Below the pieces are notes generated by a model. It saw nothing but the letters and a program-made list of their open reading frames with translations, made no database searches and was not told the DNA's origin. Below, in pieces: positions 186 to 9,933 of a stretch of DNA of 57,630 bases (the stretch's first letter is position 1; each line of letters begins with the position of its first letter). The translations under genes were made by a program, and so were the position numbers. The DNA is from Methylococcaceae bacterium (GTDB lineage: Bacteria; Pseudomonadota; Gammaproteobacteria; Methylococcales; Methylomonadaceae), in assembly GCA_014191975.1 (NCBI GenBank), contig BJHG01000005.1, positions 1 to 57,630 of the forward strand, given 5' to 3'.

Positions 186-933
186 TTTCTAAGCTGCCTG
201 TGCGGCAGTGAACGATTTGTTGCTTATGCTAACTTAGCGTTAAGCTTTCTAAGCTGCCTGTGCGGCAGTGAACGCGGGCAACTTGTACCAACGGGCGGGT
301 TCAATTTTCTAAGCTGCCTGTGCGGCAGTGAACATCTGCAAAGCACAAGGTCGCCTTGAAGTGGTTTTCTAAGCTGCCTGTGCGGCAGTGAACGTGCAGC
401 AATGCTGGCATTTATGCTTGCAATCTTTCTAAGCTGCCTGTGCGGCAGTGAACTATTTCTAGGGTTTCGTGCGTTTGATTATACTTTTCTAAGCTGCCTG
501 TGCGGCAGTGAACCTATGCTTGCGTTGTCTGTTTTGTTGTCGCAATTTCTAAGCTGCCTGTGCGGCAGTGAACTCCAACTGGGGTAGATGAGCTGATGCA
601 GTTATTTTCTAAGCTGCCTGTGCGGCAGTGAACCAACTACTTCGCAAAGCTACAGACTATATGGTTTTCTAAGCTGCCTGTGCGGCAGTGAACGTAACGC
701 TGTGGGTGGAATTGCTACAGGAATTTTTCTAAGCTGCCTGTGCGGCAGTGAACTAATTTCAGCGCGTGCATATAAATGATTGCTTTTTCTAAGCTGCCTG
801 TGCGGCAGTGAACGATTTACCACTTCCCATAATGGGTGCATCAATTTTCTAAGCTGCCTGTGCGGCAGTGAACGATCAATTCATAAGGGGGGTTAAGCAC
901 GGGCGTTTCTAAGCTGCCTGTGCGGCAGTGAAC
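186..933 (-). repeat. Leader-distal CRISPR block, 13 canonical I-F repeats
   Basis: Repeats starting at 186 through 906 are identical to each other. In crRNA orientation they begin GTTCACTGCC and end GGCAGCTTAGAAA, which matches the common I-F repeat. The 5' handle left after Cas6f cutting would be CTTAGAAA. These are the oldest units of the array, because new spacers enter at the leader end. Confidence 0.95.
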
Positions 934-965
934 GTTCGCTGTGTGTTCGTGCGTTATTGACGTAT

Positions 966-2073
966 TTTCAAAGCTGCCTGTGCGGCAGCAAACTTAATCA
1001 CGGCATTGGGTTGATGAACACTGTATTTCAAAGCTGCCTGTGCGGCAGCAAACACGCCACTGCCAAACTTCCAGTCTAATATAATTTTCAAAGCTGCCTG
1101 TGCGGCAGCAAACCTTCATCGGCAAACGATGACGACGGCTTAGGTTTTCAAAGCTGCCTGTGCGGCAGCAAACAATTAACTTGCTGATATGCCGTTCCGA
1201 CCACATTTCAAAGCTGCCTGTGCGGCAGCAAACAAAGTGCAAGTGAATCATTGCTTGTTTCTTATTTTCAAAGCTGCCTGTGCGGCAGCAAACCACCCGA
1301 ACAGCTAAGAGCAGCAATTGCACAATTTCAAAGCTGCCTGTGCGGCAGCAAACTCATCGATTGGTGGTTTACTTGGATCGTTGATTTTCAAAGCTGCCTG
1401 TGCGGCAGCAAACTTACTGTTGCTTTCATGGGCATTGCTCGTCGTTTTCAAAGCTGCCTGTGCGGCAGCAAACCATAATGCTTGCTGTGAATTGCACCAA
1501 CTATTTTTCAAAGCTGCCTGTGCGGCAGCAAACTTCTTTACACCGGTCACATTCGCGGTATCCAATTTCAAAGCTGCCTGTGCGGCAGCAAACCTACGCC
1601 CGCCAATCGAGCCGACGTGGATAATTTTCAAAGCTGCCTGTGCGGCAGCAAACAATGGAATGTCGGCTGTCGAGTCATCACTGCTTTTCAAAGCTGCCTG
1701 TGCGGCAGCAAACTGAAGTAAGTGTTTCACTGCCGTTTACACATTTTTCAAAGCTGCCTGTGCGGCAGCAAACGGTAAAGTTGCGATTTTGTCGTGCGGC
1801 TATATTTTCAAAGCTGCCTGTGCGGCAGCAAACTATCCGTAGCCGCTGTTTCGTTATTAACTACATTTCAAAGCTGCCTGTGCGGCAGCAAACCCATACC
1901 AACCTCGAATTATCTTTTAATTATGTTTCAAAGCTGCCTGTTCGGCAGCAAACACCCGCTAAACGTCCCTTTCGTAAACTGATTATTTCAAAGCTGCCTG
2001 TGCGGCAGCAAACTAAATCATGCTAATACCGCAAAAAGCAATGAATTTCAAAGCTGCCTGTGCGGCAGCAAAC
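966..2073 (-). repeat. Leader-proximal CRISPR block, 19 variant repeats
   Basis: Repeats starting at 966 through 2046 begin GTTTGCTGCC and end GGCAGCTTTGAAA in crRNA orientation. They differ from the distal block at positions 4, 5 and 24, all three changing together with no intermediate repeat. G5 can now pair with C21, so the 5-bp stem may become 6 bp across the Cas6f cleavage point, and the handle becomes CTTTGAAA. One unit, 1926-1953, has an extra loop substitution. Confidence 0.95.
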
Positions 2074-2204
2074 TGATTTTAAAATACTGCGAAAGTAGTT
2101 GTACAGCTATTTATGAATGTATTGACTTAATTTAACCATCCAAAAAACAACAAGATACAACTACCTGTTTTATATTATATTTTTAAAAAGCAAAAAAACT
2201 TGGG
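2074..2204 (-). promoter_or_regulatory. CRISPR leader with candidate promoter and IHF-like site
   Basis: This 131-bp AT-rich stretch lies between the cas6f stop and the first repeat. On the minus strand it holds a TATAAT box (plus-strand 2174-2179) that could serve as a -10 element for pre-crRNA. Around 2117-2129 the plus strand resembles the IHF consensus YAANNNNTTGATW at 11 of 13 positions; IHF bends the leader during I-F spacer capture. Both sites are pattern matches only. Confidence 0.55.
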
Positions 2205-2852
2205 TCAAAATTCAGGAACCGTTGAATTAGTACTCAAACCGTAACTACTAAAATGTGTTCCCGAAGATACTAAAACATCTGTTTTCTTAATCCACAAACA
2301 AAATAAGTTCTGATTACTCAAACTCTTTAAACGAATAAAAGGCGTTGAAACGGTTTTATCCAATAAATCACAATAACGAAACGCCATTTTATAAGTCGCT
2401 TCAAAGGGTGCTTTATCTTCCAATAATTGCATAGTACTAGTAAAAGCAGTTTCAAAATCCATAGCATGCCGCCTTGCATAACGTCTCGCTAATCGCGCTT
2501 GATTCGTTTTTGGTTGCAAACGCTGATAGATTGCATAACCGCTTAATTTTTTAGGAATGGGGCGAATGCTAGTGCAATGAACATAATCCTTGAGATTTTC
2601 AAGGCATCGTTGTGCATCAAAACGCATCAATGTAGCTTCATCGTGTGCAAATAAACGGCATTTCCCTCCTAATACACTGTATTTTTTACCAGCCACATAT
2701 TCAGGAAAAGAAATGCCAATCGGTACACGTCCTTGGTCATCTTGAATTTCAACAAGACCAAGATGGATTTTCTCAAAGAGTGACGACCAAAGTGTAAACA
2801 GATTGAAATCTGAATTGGGCAATAACGTCATTTCTAAGTAATATTTCATCAT
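2205..2852 (-). CDS. cas6f: Cas6f (Csy4) pre-crRNA endoribonuclease
   Basis: Cas6f binds the repeat hairpin, cuts pre-crRNA at the 3' base of the stem and stays on the crRNA 3' end. The 215-residue protein keeps the family landmarks: the N-terminal KYYLEMTLLP strand, the general-base His near residue 30 in LFEKIHLGLV, an arginine-rich helix near residues 117-129 (QARLARRYARR) that grips the RNA stem, and the C-terminal FSSYGLS motif. About eight extra residues follow that motif. It is longer than Pseudomonas Csy4 (187 aa). It is last in the cas operon, 6 bp after cas5fv, and next to the leader. Either of two adjacent ATG codons may be the start. Confidence 0.94.
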   Translation of the reverse strand: MMKYYLEMTLLPNSDFNLFTLWSSLFEKIHLGLVEIQDDQGRVPIGISFPEYVAGKKYSVLGGKCRLFAHDEATLMRFDAQRCLENLKDYVHCTSIRPIPKKLSGYAIYQRLQPKTNQARLARRYARRHAMDFETAFTSTMQLLEDKAPFEATYKMAFRYCDLLDKTVSTPFIRLKSLSNQNLFCLWIKKTDVLVSSGTHFSSYGLSTNSTVPEF

Positions 2853-2858
2853 AAGTGC

Positions 2859-3896
2859 CTATATTCGCAAATTATCAACATACGCCAACCCTTTTTTACC
2901 GAGATAAAAACTAGACACGCCAGCCGCTTCTATCATATTTTTTAGCTGAGTCGCTTTTTCTGAGTCAATGTCTAAATGAATGTCGAGTGTACCGCTCGCT
3001 TTAGTAAGCATAGAAACCACTTCGCCCTCCCCCTTACGTTTTTCTTTCAACAAATACGGATTGCCCCAAATTGGTTTTTTACTGCCCGTCGTAAATCGAT
3101 CCATAAAATCTTTAGGCGTAAATCTGCGCTTTGAAATGCCGCTAATGCCTCCCGATTTTGTCAATGCATTAGACAAATCAAAATGTTGATTTAATCGTGA
3201 AATTTGCAAATACAAGGCAGAGCAATAAAACATAATTGGTTTAACCATGCCTTTGGCATCAAGATATTCTGAATCGGAAAAATGAGATTTTAATTCACTC
3301 AATGCTGTTTTAATATCGCCAGAAACTTCTACCGATTTTAATTTGTTTAGCTGGCCTAATTGTTCAAGAACGTTTAGCGGATCAAATGTTCTTGTATTTT
3401 CAACAACAAAATCCGAATGTATAATAAATTGACATAATGTATAAAAATCTAACGTCAAAACACCCCAAAACGCATCAGAATAATCTGAACTGAAGATAGG
3501 GTCATTGCCTTTAATCATACCGGTAAAAGCATTTTGATCGGTACTGCCGCTCATATTTCGAATATAAACAATCTCTTTACTAATAGGATTTAGGCGATCA
3601 TGTGGATGATCTTCAAACGTAATGTTTTCTTCTGCTTCTGCAAAAAAGTAATTCGGACATTGTTTAGATTGATACAGTTTTCGTTGATCACCAATTAACC
3701 GATTCAAAACACCCATGACTGTGTTATGAGTAATGTCGCGTTGAATAAAATTGGGATATTGCCCATCACTATTGCGTTTACCTAAATTGGTCATAGAACC
3801 AATAAAACCTCGTTTTTCTTTAGGAATTGGCTCGTTGTTTGAACCATCCAGAAACGAATTTCGCCAAGATGCTTCATATTTAATGGTAATGCGCAT
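2859..3896 (-). CDS. cas5fv: Cas5fv, type I-F2 Cascade subunit (large-subunit substitute)
   Basis: This 345-residue protein begins MRITIKYEASWRNSFLDGSN, the N-terminus I associate with the Cas5fv protein of Shewanella putrefaciens I-Fv systems. In that system Cas5fv caps the crRNA 5' handle, and an inserted helical domain recognises the PAM, replacing the missing Cas8f. Here the Cas5-like N-terminal part is followed by a long, mostly helical middle (roughly 90-260) and then a region containing RRFTPKDFMDRF and KKPIWGNPYL. It lies 8 bp after cas7fv and 6 bp before cas6f. The assignment rests on order and family resemblance; domain borders are estimates. Confidence 0.88.
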   Translation of the reverse strand: MRITIKYEASWRNSFLDGSNNEPIPKEKRGFIGSMTNLGKRNSDGQYPNFIQRDITHNTVMGVLNRLIGDQRKLYQSKQCPNYFFAEAEENITFEDHPHDRLNPISKEIVYIRNMSGSTDQNAFTGMIKGNDPIFSSDYSDAFWGVLTLDFYTLCQFIIHSDFVVENTRTFDPLNVLEQLGQLNKLKSVEVSGDIKTALSELKSHFSDSEYLDAKGMVKPIMFYCSALYLQISRLNQHFDLSNALTKSGGISGISKRRFTPKDFMDRFTTGSKKPIWGNPYLLKEKRKGEGEVVSMLTKASGTLDIHLDIDSEKATQLKNMIEAAGVSSFYLGKKGLAYVDNLRI

Positions 3897-3904
3897 AAAA
3901 ACCT

Positions 3905-4885
3905 CTATTTTGAATAAAAATAAACGGCATATTCGGATTCAGGTGTTTGTGAAATATCATTTTCAGCGCGTTTAATTCGCATCATTTTATGACTGTCGTT
4001 ATAGTCAACTAATACGTCCTCTACATACATATAACCTTTAGCCTGACGAATACTCAATTCGCTAATTAGTTGAATAGTTTCATTAACCAAAATATCAATT
4101 GCTTCATTATCGAGCAAAATGCCCACTTCACCTTCCTCAAAAATTGTCCCACCGCGCACGTAATTTTTATGAAAAACTGCTTTAGGATTGCGTTCAGGGG
4201 CAATATTTTTAATGAATTTTTCGATAGCTTGAGCTATTTGTTCACCTTCGCCTTCTTTGATAATCATAGAGGCGCGATCAAATTTTTTATCTAACGAAAT
4301 GAATTGCAGCTGCTCAATGCTGATTGAACCATAGGCCAAATATTCAGTTTCACCAAACGTGGTTTTTGAAAAAAAAGAATTACTAGCAACATCGTTGCCT
4401 TTATCATCAGTTCCTTTTTCTTTAGAGCCAGAGCGTCCCATTTGCTCAAAATTACCATTACCTAATTGATCAATAAAATCTTCCAGTAATAATGGACTGG
4501 TGCGTTTGCATTGACTTGATGGCACAACATAACCACGAATTAAACCCGTAATGGAAGTAAGAACATCTTGCAAACTCTTATCTTTGGCATAATGTAAATC
4601 AAATGCTTGATCTCTAAATAAATGATGGCGGATACAATTTTGACTGATATACATAGGGGTTTCTTTGAAATTGATATCCGAGGCTTGTTTTTTATATTTA
4701 TAACCTGTCTCCTCTTTCACTTTTCCCGTTAAATTGCTGTAGCCACGAAGTTTGGGGAGTGTGTGGTTATCCACTGTTTTACCATCATCTCCAGCCAATG
4801 TTGTTGGTCCATTCCAATTCACTACCCCATGCCCTAGTGCAATGATTTTGAAATCTACACTTTTAATGCCTGTTATTTTGTTCAT
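3905..4885 (-). CDS. cas7fv: Cas7fv, type I-F2 Cascade backbone subunit
   Basis: Multiple copies of this protein form the backbone that coats the crRNA spacer. The sequence [20 protein letters not shown] and later [14 protein letters not shown] and [20 protein letters not shown] closely match what I recall of Shewanella Cas7fv rather than the Csy3 of I-F1. The start at 4885 is preferred: GAGGA lies just upstream and the family N-terminus begins there; an upstream ATG at 4900 would add five residues and overlap the cas2-3 end by 11 bp. The product is 326 residues. The C-terminal part ([20 protein letters not shown]) is well conserved. It is cotranscribed with cas5fv, 8 bp downstream. Confidence 0.92.
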
Positions 4886-4889
4886 AGAA

Positions 4890-7805
4890 TTAATCCTCAT
4901 CTCGTGACGTTAAATGTTTAATTGAAATTGCGCCTATTGGCTGTTTGTCGCAAACGGCATAATAAATTGCGTAACTATGTCGTGCACTTTCCCCACCTAC
5001 CTCGTGTAAATCATTGGGGGTGTAACTTAGGTAAATTGGGAACTCGGAGTTTCTTGCTTCATTAAGCAAGATAAAATCTTTGAAGGCTTTGGTGCCGCCC
5101 ATAATGTTGTGATGTTTATTTTTCATATACGCCAGCAAATTTTTATCGCTGTCGCCATACCCTTCAATTTCGTCTTTTGAAGCGGTAAGATTATCAACAT
5201 CATCGCGTTCATTGATCGGGAAGTGATAAGCGTATTCATTTATAAATTGAATATTCTTTGGATCATTCACATCACAGACCGCCATCTGAACAAACCGATT
5301 ATCACCGCGTAGCGAATGCTTGCTGATTTTGACTTTGCCTTTTTCTTGTATTTTTTTCGATGAAATCGTAATGGGGTCAACCACTTTGAGATTGATTAAA
5401 TTAACACTGGCTTTCAGGGAGGCTATCAAGTCCGATTCGATAAATTTGCGCGCGTTATCTAACTCGTGATAACGCTTATAAAGCATATAAATCTGCGGTA
5501 ATGTAAATTCCTTCTCATTCAATTCTGACTTTAAGAACTGATACCACGCTTTTGTTGATCCAAAGGTGTGAAGGCGCGATAAAAATCGCGCAGCTGAACC
5601 GGTTCCTTTACCTAGATCAATCGTTTCGGGCACAGCAATACAATAAATATTCGTTTCTTTATTTAAACCAAACCGATCCAATCGTCCTAAACGCTGTAAA
5701 CAATCTTCCGCATTTGTCAGTTCAGTCACCATAAAATCACAGCTAATATTTAATGAAGCCTGCACAATTGGACCGCTTCGCAAAACCGTGAATTTATCTG
5801 TGCCATCTTTGTTAAATGACTCGTAAACTTCTTCAAACCATTTTTGTTTATCGCTTTTTTTGAATTTTGAATGCAGTAAAACAGCGTTTTCTTGTTGTTG
5901 GTTTTGAATAAAACTTTTTTGAGCCGTTAGCGCGGTATTATTTATCACAAAGGTTTTTGAATCATACCTCTGATATAAAGGATTACTTTCATCTTGCAGA
6001 GTTTCATCAAACACCTTAAATTTGATTTTATAAGTGCTTGAGTTGAAAGAAGTCATTAAAATAATATCTTTAGGATCAATATTTAAAACGTGTTGCAAGT
6101 AAAAATAATGGGGAGTTGCCGACACTAATAAGGTATTGGCGAGATTTTCTTGATTTTGCTTACACGCGATCAATTCAGCAAACAGCAAATTAAAGGCCGG
6201 CATATTGATGTATTCATGAAACTCATCAAAGACGATATGCGAACGAAGATAATCAATTAACGAGTTAGCTTTGGTATGCGTAATAATCCCACCAAAAATT
6301 TGATCTATGGTTGTAATGACAATATCACCAGAAAAATAATCACCTTCTAATGTTGGCTGACTCCATTGATTTATGTATTTAAATTCGCCGGTGTTAATTT
6401 CTATTTTTGCATCAGGCAAATATTGTTCAGACGTTAATTCATCAAATAAGCCTTGGCAAACTTGCACCCTTGGGCAAATCCAAATGATTTGCTGTGCATT
6501 TTTCAACTTAGCCCATTCGAGTGCAATTTTAGTTTTACCACAACCCGCAGGCCCAGCCAAAACTGCAACATTTTGCGTTTTGGTTAGTTGAACCGCAACT
6601 TCAGTTTGTTTACTGCTGCGCTCGCCTGCTGGGAAATGCGTTAAACAATTTTGAATGTGTGAACAAAGAGTGGATTCAATCTTTTCAGGAACCAACTTGT
6701 CTAACGTGTAATTTTTAATATGTACTTTTAATTCAAATGGTTGCAAAGCAGACACCCAGCGATCAGCAGAAATGACACATGCTCGCATAATATTATTGTC
6801 AGCATTGTGTTGAATTTGCATTCGATATAGATTTACATTTTCTTCATGCGTATATTTTTTATAATAAGGTAAAGGCATTTCGCCTTGTTGTTTGATAACA
6901 TCTAAATCACAATCATCACTAAAGATACTTGAGATGATTGACAGCGCTGTATTTCGATATTTTGCATCAATAGCACCTAAGGTATTGAGCAATTTAATTG
7001 ATTTTTCTATTAATTCGCTAAAGCTCATTGCTTTTAAATTACTACTTAACTTTTTATGAATATCGCCATAATTTACAAAATCCTTTTCTTTACGAAATGG
7101 CTTGGCGTGATGCCAATAAATCACGTGTTTAATTGACTGTTTATTACTAGCGTTAATTTTCTTTAACGAAAGATTATCAAGTAGTTGATAAAGTAATACT
7201 GAGATTTCATTATGTCGTGGGTGTTTATCAAAATTAAACTTAGTGTCATCAATATGCTGCCCATCTTCAGCCAAAAAATCTTTTTTCTTTGGGTTTCTTA
7301 CCCAATCTTGAAAGCAAGGATCAATTTTGCCTAAATCATGTAAACAACCTGCTACAAAGATAGCCATTGATTGTTTTTCTTGGCAGGGCATCAAATTTCT
7401 ATGCAGTTGCTCTGCTACATATCCGACAGCAAATAAATGCTCGGCTAAAGGTTGAAATTGGGTGTTTGCATACGATATATTTGGATTAGGTTTATCGCTT
7501 GGAATATCCATAATTAGCTCTTTTGAAGTTGTGTTAACGGGCACAATACCCTGTAAATTGAAACAATCTCGACTGCCCACAATCCAAACCAACTCACTAC
7601 GACTTCTTGACCGTATCCAGTGACAAGAAACGGCGGTATTTTTGGTGGCTGTTTTACGAAGTAATGTTTTGACGGCAATCAAACCATCTTCAGTAATAAT
7701 GGTCTGCCATGTGTTGTCGCCGATTCGATTGGCAAAAGTATCCAGTACGCGTCGAGTGCGGTTAAGGGCTTTTTTTTCACATTGACTAACAAAAGTGACC
7801 ATCAT
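4890..7805 (-). CDS. cas2-3: Cas2-Cas3 fusion: nuclease-helicase plus adaptation subunit
   Basis: In I-F systems Cas2 is fused to Cas3, linking spacer capture by Cas1 to target shredding. Residues 1-95 are the Cas2-like part ([20 protein letters not shown]). The HD nuclease follows, with His near 125 (AEHLFAVG), the HD pair near 158-159 (CLHDLGK) and a His pair near 234. The SF2 helicase has Walker A GPAGCGKT near 420-427, a DEFH box (IVFDEFHEY), SATPHY and the [10 protein letters not shown] motif VI. The box reads DEFH where many Cas3 proteins have DEVH. The length, 971 aa, is shorter than typical I-F1 Cas2-3 (about 1,075-1,100). The start at 7805 overlaps the cas1 stop by 4 bases, suggesting translational coupling. 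Confidence 0.96.
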
Positions 7806-8749
7806 GACCAATCACCGCGTAAAGACTGTTCTTTGACTTGATCAAACATGAAGTCGAGCGCTTTATGCTCTGTGAATTTTTGAAGTATTTGTTGCCTGAA
7901 TTCTTGCTCATTCATTTTTTCTTTAGCGCAGATAAACGCCCAAGGCAAAACAATGGCATCTTTGATAAGGTCTGCGACATCAAACACTAAAGCGCCGCGT
8001 CGCGTTTTACCATGCATGACAGCGAAACCGTGTGGAATACCTAAAACCCAAAGTGTGGTAGCCGCAAGACCATAAGCTAGGTAGTTGCCATGATTTAAAA
8101 AGTCATTAGCGATATCGGTTGATTGATGATCGCGCGTGAAATCAGCTTGTTGTGTTAATTTTGCCGCGTAGCGATAAAGATGCTTTGTCATTAAGGCTTC
8201 ACGTTGCAGTAAATCACCAGACTTTTCTGCACTGTCAATACCGCAACTATAATTGCTCAACGCATTGGCAATAAGCGCATCATCAATGAAAAAGCTTTCC
8301 GCTTTTAAATCACGATCTTTATTCCATGTTTTTTGGATAAAGGCGAGGCGAGCGTGTTGAAAAGTTTTAGCGACAGCAAGACGTTTGCTGTCATCAAACC
8401 AGAAACTGAGCCAGCCCTGAACATACTCGGTTGGGCGATACTCGTTCTGAGGATTGAGCCATTCAATTTCGCTACCCGAAAACAACGGCGTGCCACCGCC
8501 GCCGCAAAATCCGACTAATACGCCAGCACTTGCCAGCATACGCACGGCGGCTTGCGTAATGGAAGTTCCTGTACCCAGTAAAATTACTGTGGTATTGGCT
8601 ATTGGAATATTCCAATAATAATTTTGGTCTTTGGCTTCAGTTAAGTAGAGAACGCGCCCGTCTTTTTGCATGACTCGGCATTTTTCTAAATAGAAAATAT
8701 TGGCGCGTTTAGAATGAAGGATAGCTTTTAAATCTGTTAATTGCTCCAT
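7802..8749 (-). CDS. cas1: Cas1 integrase, subtype I-F
   Basis: Cas1 inserts new spacers at the leader end of the array together with the Cas2 part of Cas2-3. The 315-residue protein has the I-F Cas1 form: an N-terminal beta domain with [20 protein letters not shown] near 58-76, and a helical catalytic lobe with probable metal ligands Glu184 ([14 protein letters not shown]), His246 ([14 protein letters not shown]) and Asp257/Asp260. All ligands appear present, so adaptation may be active. It is the first gene of the cas operon, starting 555 bp from the divergent SSB-like gene. Confidence 0.97.
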
Positions 8750-9304
8750 TACCAGTTCCTGATTTAAATACCATTCTTGCAGATTGTATTGTATGGAATA
8801 TTATTTGGAATATACCTTGCAATTCTAAAAACTAAAAATCGTTTGAACAGATTACACGCAAATCAAATTGGGCTAACCCCAAATAATATTCAGGAGCAAA
8901 GAGATGGAGGTAAATCTATATAGCTGATACGCAAAGCATATGAATCTAACTCTATAAAAAGCAATTAGCCATATCTAATCAAAATTAATAATTGAAAGTG
9001 TATTAATTACCGGCATTAATTGTGGGTTTTATAGTTTTTTCAATCCGAAGCCAATCACAAATATATTATAAAATTTTATAAAAATTTTTCACACGGCCTT
9101 TATAAAACACAGGGGGCTTGTTTGAAAAAAGCACTATTCGTTTGTGCTCATTAGTATGTAGATCGAAATGGCGGAGTCCCAAATAGTATTTAGGGGGTAT
9201 GGGGGGACTGGGGGGTGTACTTAGCAAAGAATTCATGGGATATTGAATCAAAATCGTCTATTAGTTGATCTTCAATGTACTTCCTAAGTTAAAAGCCAAA
9301 TCGC
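8750..9304. other. Intergenic region between cas1 and SSB gene, AT-rich with G-tracts
   Basis: No convincing protein gene is seen in this 555-bp gap. It must carry the cas promoter on the minus strand and probably the promoter of the SSB-like gene on the plus strand; no clean -35/-10 pair stands out. It contains two similar dyad motifs, CCCAAATAATATTCAGG near 8878 and CCCAAATAGTATTTAGGG near 9178, and long G runs at 9112-9116 and 9193-9215. Confidence 0.5.
9193..9215 (+). other. G-run cluster with quadruplex potential
   Basis: Three G runs of 5, 6 and 6 bases (9193-9197, 9201-9206, 9210-9215) are separated by TAT and ACT. A fourth run could come from GGCGG near 9170 or GGGGG at 9112-9116. 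The cluster stands out sharply from the AT-rich surroundings. It abuts the second CCCAAATA dyad. No function is assigned. Confidence 0.6.
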
Positions 9305-9721
9305 ATGAGCAATATTATTAGTTTTATAGGCGTAATTGAGAGTGCTGCCAAAGTTAGTCAATCAGCAGATGATCGAGCAGTATTAGATTTATTGGTTTCT
9401 AATGCCGTAGGCTTAGGTAATAAGCAGCAAACAATCTGGTTTCATGTGCTACTGAGGGGCAAACGAGCAAAGAGTGATTTAAAGGACTATATCACTAAAG
9501 GGCAGCAAGTGTTTGTCTCAGGCGAAATGTCACAAAGCGAATATCAAGACAGCGACGTTAAGACCATGTATGAAATCAACGCGAATATCGTTGATATAGT
9601 GGGCAATCCAAGCGGTGGTAAGCAACTTAAACAGCAAGCACCTAGGCAACCCTATCAAACGCCTCGTAAAGCTTATGAAGAACTTGAAAGAATGAAGACT
9701 GCAAGACTAGAGATCACTTAG
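9305..9721 (+). CDS. Single-stranded DNA-binding protein, plasmid-type
   Basis: The 138-residue product has the OB-fold layout of bacterial SSB: MSNIISFIGVIESAAKV, then TIWFHVLLRGKRAKSDLKDY and ITKGQQVFVSGEMSQSEY, ending about residue 102. The C-terminal tail is basic and lacks the acidic DDDIPF-like tip of the housekeeping SSB. That fits accessory SSBs of plasmids and integrative elements. The fold would bind single-stranded DNA as an oligomer. It is divergent from the cas operon and lies 212 bp from the tRNA cluster, with no cotranscribed partner; 9722-9933 shows only a short AT-rich tandem repeat near 9827-9855. It may belong to a mobile island that includes the CRISPR locus, but this is inference. 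Confidence 0.75.
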   Translation: MSNIISFIGVIESAAKVSQSADDRAVLDLLVSNAVGLGNKQQTIWFHVLLRGKRAKSDLKDYITKGQQVFVSGEMSQSEYQDSDVKTMYEINANIVDIVGNPSGGKQLKQQAPRQPYQTPRKAYEELERMKTARLEIT

Positions 9722-9933
9722 ATTCCAGAGATAACATTTCATTACTGCCGTTACAAGCTACAAATCATAACTTTTGGTACTCGAGTAAATTTGAGATCTG
9801 AATAGTTCTATGTATGATCCAAGAAAAATTAATCAAGAAAAATTAATTAAATGAAATGAAATCTGATGGTGACTTATTGGTTACTCATTATAAAACTAAT
9901 CAAGCATCAATAACTTTAACTCATTGATTTAAC

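Follow-up and report, generated by a model that had tools for sequence, protein, structure and literature searches.

The CRISPR-Cas locus

The stretch of DNA analysed here, called the window, comprises 57,630 nucleotides from a Methylococcaceae bacterium (contig BJHG01000005.1, positions 1 to 57,630), and it carries near its left end a CRISPR array, a leader and five cas genes:

186-933, minus strand: leader-distal block of the array, 13 identical repeats (GTTCACTGCCGCACAGGCAGCTTAGAAA) and 12 spacers (nos. 20-31 from the leader)
934-965, minus strand: junction spacer, no. 19 from the leader, 32 nt, separating the last old-type from the first new-type repeat
966-2073, minus strand: leader-proximal block of the array, 19 repeats with T4, G5 and T24 (GTTTGCTGCCGCACAGGCAGCTTTGAAA) and 18 spacers
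2074-2204, minus strand: leader, 131 nt from the first repeat to cas6f; best leader match in a related locus, L043 (67%)
2205-2852, minus strand: cas6f (Csy4), crRNA endoribonuclease; TIGR02563, 114 bits (cut-off 36.25)
2859-3896, minus strand: cas5fv; phmmer match to PDB chain 5o6u_F (Cas5fv), E 2.8e-120, residues 1-344; no NCBIfam match
3905-4900, minus strand: cas7fv; NF040577, 493.8 bits (cut-off 200)
4890-7811, minus strand: cas3 of the I-F kind; N-terminal part corresponding to TIGR02562 positions 1-97, with HD and helicase regions
7802-8749, minus strand: cas1f; TIGR03637, 482.9 bits (cut-off 150)

The Cas3 scores 137.6 bits against TIGR02562, below the cut-off of 565.95, and 64.8 bits against TIGR01596, above the cut-off of 43.45, and no large-subunit (Cas8f) gene was found in the operon, which has five genes of at least 90 aa on its strand at 2205-8749. 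By its predicted gene content the system is type I-F2 (I-Fv); a sequence-only reading had taken the repeat for that of a standard I-F system, an assignment that the matches to Cas7fv and Cas5fv correct. In Cas7fv and Cas5fv trees, which were quick searches with no bootstrap, the window groups with the related loci L041-L047 (SH-aLRT 94 and 88), and its placement in the Cas3 and Cas6f trees is open.

An array in two blocks

The array (186-2073) has a strict 60-nt period, with 32 repeats and 31 spacers, and its crRNA strand is the minus strand, on which the cas genes at 2205-8749 also lie. Repeats start at 186, 246 and so on to 906 in the distal block (n=13) and at 966 and so on to 2046 in the proximal block (n=19), and every spacer (31/31) is 32 nt long. 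Read in crRNA orientation, the distal repeats have the form GTTCAC...CTTAGAAA and the proximal ones the form GTTTGC...CTTTGAAA, so that three changes, C4T, A5G and A24T, separate old from new, and the crRNA 5' tag occurs in the array in two variants, CUUAGAAA and CUUUGAAA. The combination T4, G5 and T24 is present in 19/19 proximal and 0/13 distal repeats, and the variant repeats form one unbroken block at the leader end. These observations confirm the earlier counts of 13 distal and 19 proximal repeats with a switch at 966, and also the claim that the proximal repeats share three changes reached without an intermediate, with the qualification that C12A is also present in one proximal repeat (1926-1953).

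At the junction, the repeat at 906-933 is wholly old-type, that at 966-993 is wholly new-type, and the 60-nt register is intact; no hybrid or intermediate repeat and no break in register was found there or elsewhere in the 32-repeat array. The longest identical run between the two repeat types is 18 consecutive bases. In the whole assembly (2.13 Mb, 131 contigs) the repeat core, with at most one mismatch, occurs 32 times, always within this array.

Repeat variation among relatives

The rarity of such a switch was assessed in a survey of 70 arrays and 2879 repeats, the window included, from same-family genomes with a Cas7fv or Cas6f match; nearly all come from one family, two arrays (L166 and L167) being from another family of the order. 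The survey holds some redundancy (L055 and L165 are the same array, and L052, L060 and L119 each contribute two pieces), and the genome collections compared contain one genome per species. At least two blocks of at least three copies each are found in 3/70 arrays, namely the window, L048 and L053, and the switch involves three changes in the window, one in L048, and in L053 one change that is later reversed: in this last array (G145:C29), 17 normal repeats are followed by 10 with C12A, after which 5 are normal again. L048 (G183:C1) also contains three consecutive spacers twice (zero-based 55-57 and 82-84), a segmental duplication.

When interior repeats were counted in the arrays of 8 or more repeats (63, of which 62 come from relatives), the last three at the distal end being omitted, 2624/2653 equalled the local majority, and the remainder differed from it at one position (24 repeats), two positions (1), three (3) or seven (1). 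The seven-change repeat (L048, no. 90 of 93) and the other two three-change repeats (L062, no. 18 of 22; L167, no. 48 of 51) are single and near the distal end, and the window's is the only one of the 3/2653 three-change repeats to have founded a lasting block. If mutations were independent, the expected number of repeats with three or more changes would be 0.0004 (26 changes counted) to 0.0014 (39 counted), and the chance that drift during a pause in acquisition puts three changes all in the leader-side copy among 14 equal targets would be 0.0004; this calculation assumes equal, independent mutation and the case was picked for its oddness, so these probabilities serve as a guide and not as a test. 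Within those limits they uphold the main point of the sequence-only reading: the three changes stand together in a copied repeat with no intermediate, and independent stepwise mutation accounts for this poorly.

Part of the switch is ordinary, as relatives commonly differ from one another at positions 4 and 5: both vary among the 2847 repeats outside the window, 874 of which have G5. Position 24 is nearly invariant in the same set (A 2840, T 4, G 3), so the switch in the window alters the crRNA 5' tag at a position held by A in 2840/2847 repeats elsewhere. According to the parts of the literature drawn on here, this tag, within which T24 falls, is bound by Cas5fv (PMC6546366), and in the type I-F system of A. 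baumannii its last two bases matter for interference and priming, position 24 being left untreated in the corresponding parts of that paper (PMC9602844). Such a switch is rare among the array's relatives; as a kind of event it is ordinary, in keeping with usual array growth from a replaced first repeat, and this array is an unusual example.

Searches for a donor of the new repeat found none. Allowing any bases at positions 4 and 5, an otherwise exact T24 repeat occurs in one stretch of an 84,980-species collection, which may omit records of the window's own genome, and there it is the single last repeat of an otherwise normal array; it is absent from IMG/VR, as is the exact repeat changed at positions 4 and 5 only, and the old repeat is carried by 16 IMG/VR stretches. 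A looser pattern of the new repeat, applied to 369 genomes drawn from the class, recovered the window's own 19 copies alone. Among papers judged by title or the start of the abstract, a scope outside which subscription papers mostly fall, no treatment of an array with such a repeat-type switch was found. By its title, a 2025 survey by Mitrofanov and others (doi 10.1101/2025.04.02.646798) reportedly deals with CRISPR repeat mutations and their link to spacer dynamics.

Leader, cas genes and locus history

The leader end of the array had been identified correctly: 131 nt lie between the first repeat and cas6f, and an alignment covered the stretch preceding the first repeat here and in 26 related loci. 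The window's leader is 57-67% identical to those of most close relatives and 49-50% identical to those of L041 and L047, and the relatives' leaders are mostly 66-86% identical to one another. The best match of both the leader (67%) and Cas5fv (82%) is L043, whose array consists of 58 old-type repeats and one variant. Divergence was scaled as the ratio of window-to-clade to within-clade divergence, with L042, L043, L045 and L046 as the clade, which gave 1.70 (1.36-2.20) for Cas6f, 1.76 (1.35-2.31) for the leader, 2.12 (1.64-2.93; the partial L043 left out) for Cas1, 2.14 (1.71-2.76) for Cas5fv, 2.40 (1.75-3.72) for Cas7fv and 1.28 (1.15-1.41) for Cas3, or 1.55 without L042. On this scale Cas6f and the leader appear not out of line with Cas1, Cas5fv and Cas7fv, and the apparent outlier is Cas3, not the leader end.

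The window's tip is the longest of 36 in the Cas6f tree (0.47; median 0.12), which suggested co-evolution of Cas proteins with the new repeat, an idea that was dropped as the scaled divergence is ordinary. Substitutions at otherwise invariant columns (20 rows for each of these four proteins) number 3 in Cas6f (Q28K, V99I and E119A), 1 in Cas5fv (G28K), 0 in Cas7fv and 2 in Cas3, and the Cas6f of L053 likewise has 3; Cas1 has 5, the most of 12 rows (the next has 3). The Cas1 changes and Cas5fv G28K would be leads only, and the alignments give no clear signal of co-evolution. Another long Cas6f tip (0.37) belongs to L044 (G172:C3), an I-F2 cas operon in which the ~340 bases from cas6f to the contig end contain no repeat. 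The I-F2 operons L056, L060, L062, L063, L068-L070, L072 and L074-L076 each have either of two Cas6f kinds, ~23-27% or 54-68% identical to the window's, and the presence of two such different kinds in the family suggests that cas6f may have been exchanged between operons.

Congeners share DNA with the window only from ~9911-9924 onward (three short matches, in G005, G007 and G016, are listed at 8760-9910), and thus the cas locus lies in a segment that they lack at this place. A gene of the SSB family lies at 9305-9721, between cas1 and the congener-shared DNA, with weak short congener matches listed. The left end of the locus falls outside the window, as the contig starts at position 1. Just beyond the leader-distal end of the array, positions 1-178 recur at 99% identity at a contig end elsewhere in the assembly (G000:C40:18641-18818, L222), where the copy runs into a 274-aa ORF with no Pfam match. 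Four congeners (G005, G013, G003 and G014; loci L001, L003, L005 and L007) have single I-F-like repeats with 2-3 mismatches and no Cas6f match; these could be array remnants or solitary repeat units.

Spacer targets

Searches of phage and plasmid collections with the 31 spacers gave no match, and IMG/VR contained no exact match to pieces of spacers 18, 19, 20, 22 and 23. For 237 family genomes, the listing at E up to 0.02 gives 11 matches outside the array, of which three with E above 0.01 (spacer 9 in G210, spacer 30 in G026 and spacer 1 in G221) may be due to chance, E being given per genome with 237 searched. In two congeners, one contig each (G007:C122 and G008:C316) is matched by both distal spacer 21 and distal spacer 30. 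Proximal spacers 2 and 3 match G158:C103, and spacers 1 and 4 match two contigs of G042, the contigs matched by spacers 1-4 being from two other genera. An integrase gene is found on a contig matched by the distal pair (L180) and a PriCT_2 primase gene on one matched by the proximal pair (L173); a 920-aa protein of L181 has no Pfam match.

A 5'-CC PAM is present at 8 of the 10 matches read (5/5 proximal, 3/5 distal; the G221 match is gapped and was left unread), and both exceptions concern spacer 30, with CT in G007 and GG in the weak G026 match. A common PAM agrees with one adaptation machinery for both blocks, and it would not separate two I-F systems. Of the comparison proposed earlier for the two spacer sets, the PAM part thus yields the same motif, mostly CC, on both sides, and the matches are too few to claim that the blocks have different targets.

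How the repeat type may have changed

We consider it somewhat probable that this is one continuous I-F2 array whose first repeat was exchanged as a whole after spacer 19 had been acquired and before spacer 18, the new version being copied from then on. In a resident I-F2 array, the replacement would have affected the leader-proximal repeat, which every acquisition duplicates, and each later acquisition would have copied the new version, 18 times in all, leaving 19 new-type before 13 old-type repeats; the block structure would follow, since any change in the first repeat passes to every repeat made after it. The premise that acquisition copies this repeat is taken by analogy from type I-E, in which, in the part of that work drawn on here, the first repeat is cut in a staggered manner at both ends and both strands are thought to serve as templates for the daughter repeats (PMC4081107). 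The three changes would have come about at once, or at least in the interval between two acquisitions; the likeliest mechanisms would be local gene conversion, template switching or a repair error spanning several bases in a nicked, gapped first repeat. Recombination with a related copy and a local multi-base event are both possible routes. Against replacement from a template stands the failure to find a donor repeat in the 84,980-species collection, IMG/VR or the 369 class genomes, and such replacement is accordingly only proposed.

The alternative that survives best, a tentative one that we hold to be possible, is that the first repeat was substituted stepwise, either under selection or while acquisition paused, and that between one step and the next either no spacer was acquired or none was retained. 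Single-base switches do exist in relatives (L048 and L053), A24T occurs alone in L133 (no. 50 of 62), and L062, with 16 TTTCAC repeats followed by one CTTCAC and then five assorted GTT repeats, possibly records a one-base switch with a kept intermediate. A nicked and refilled first repeat may also mutate faster than others, and selection could carry several changes quickly. Against this succession of steps stand the low number of three-change repeats expected under independence and the lack of an intermediate; drift during a pause is unlikely because none of the 13 old repeats shows any change, and if intermediates had been lost by deletion between unlike repeats, a hybrid would usually remain. 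For these last two reasons, one-step replacement of the first repeat is preferred as the simplest remaining reading.

A broader proposal, that acquisition itself rewrites the repeat, the first repeat being cut exactly at both ends and, while gapped, occasionally refilled from a related repeat or from its own folded strand, is doubtful in our judgment. If it were true, a 28-nt template that includes the crRNA 5' tag could be swapped in one step, and the repeat type of all later memories reset. Correction templated by the repeat's own palindrome was considered and fits A5G alone, which adds one pair (-12.1 vs -8.6 kcal/mol), not C4T or A24T. Escape from repeat-mimicking RNA anti-CRISPRs, which according to the portion of that study used here act through the Cas6f-bound stem (C6/G20; PMC10651486), was dropped because that stem is unchanged here.

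We regard it as very unlikely that two arrays were fused, an origin suggested by the sequence-only reading, or that arrays recombined through the core that the repeats share. The two clean blocks would suit such an origin, and recombination between loci of the family occurs: L073 and L077 are 74 and 78% identical to the window in Cas3 and 56 and 57% in Cas7fv, a contrast that points to such recombination and allows for a longer segment having been imported. On the other hand, crossing over within the 18-nt core should yield a hybrid that is new at positions 4-5 and old at position 24, or old at the former and new at the latter, and none is present; the register and the 32-nt junction spacer are normal, the assembly holds no second array with the core, and the new repeat turned up in no other array of the collections searched. 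Together with the same PAM in most matches of both blocks, these points disfavour fusion.

Similarly improbable is replacement of the leader and cas genes, or of cas6f, leader and first repeat, beside an older array by those of an unsampled I-F locus. The long Cas6f tip, a leader less like those of relatives than most of these are to one another, and the lack of a Cas7fv match in all 17 congeners could be read in its favour. It is not indicated, because the scaled divergence of the leader and Cas6f is not out of line and most targets of both blocks have a CC PAM. Cas7fv and Cas5fv lie beside the I-F2 group L041-L047 in their trees, L043, which provides the best match of both leader and Cas5fv, has an old-type array, and a distal crossover inside a repeat would have left a hybrid; these points too disfavour the suggestion that cas genes were replaced. 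Of the earlier proposal that recombination brought in a new leader and first repeat, the first-repeat part survives as possible, with no donor found, and the new leader is not indicated.

Finally, an assembly artefact joining the arrays of two strains is extremely improbable: the metagenome assembly has 131 contigs, the window begins at a contig start adjoining the array and its first 178 bases recur at the end of C40, but a chimera at the junction is unlikely because the longest identical stretch common to the two repeat types is just 18 bases, and the spacer at the junction has a normal length and occurs once.

Comparison with known systems

Close relatives differ in their repeats, but since their arrays mostly have a single form throughout, the point at which the repeat changed can usually no longer be seen; the window preserves both sides of a change and provides a concrete case for asking whether repeats change type through single errors or because the whole template repeat is replaced. 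The closest parallels in the survey, L048 and L053, resemble the window in that a repeat variant fills a whole block of one array; they differ from it in that one base is changed instead of three, and in L053 the block lies mid-array and the array reverts to its first form. With the type I-F2 system of Shewanella putrefaciens (PDB 5o6u) the window has in common Cas7fv, Cas5fv, Cas6f, an I-F Cas3 and Cas1, the lack of a large-subunit gene between cas1 and the array, and a CC PAM at most matches, and it differs from that system in that its proximal repeats alter one base of the crRNA 5' tag, from CTTAGAAA to CTTTGAAA.
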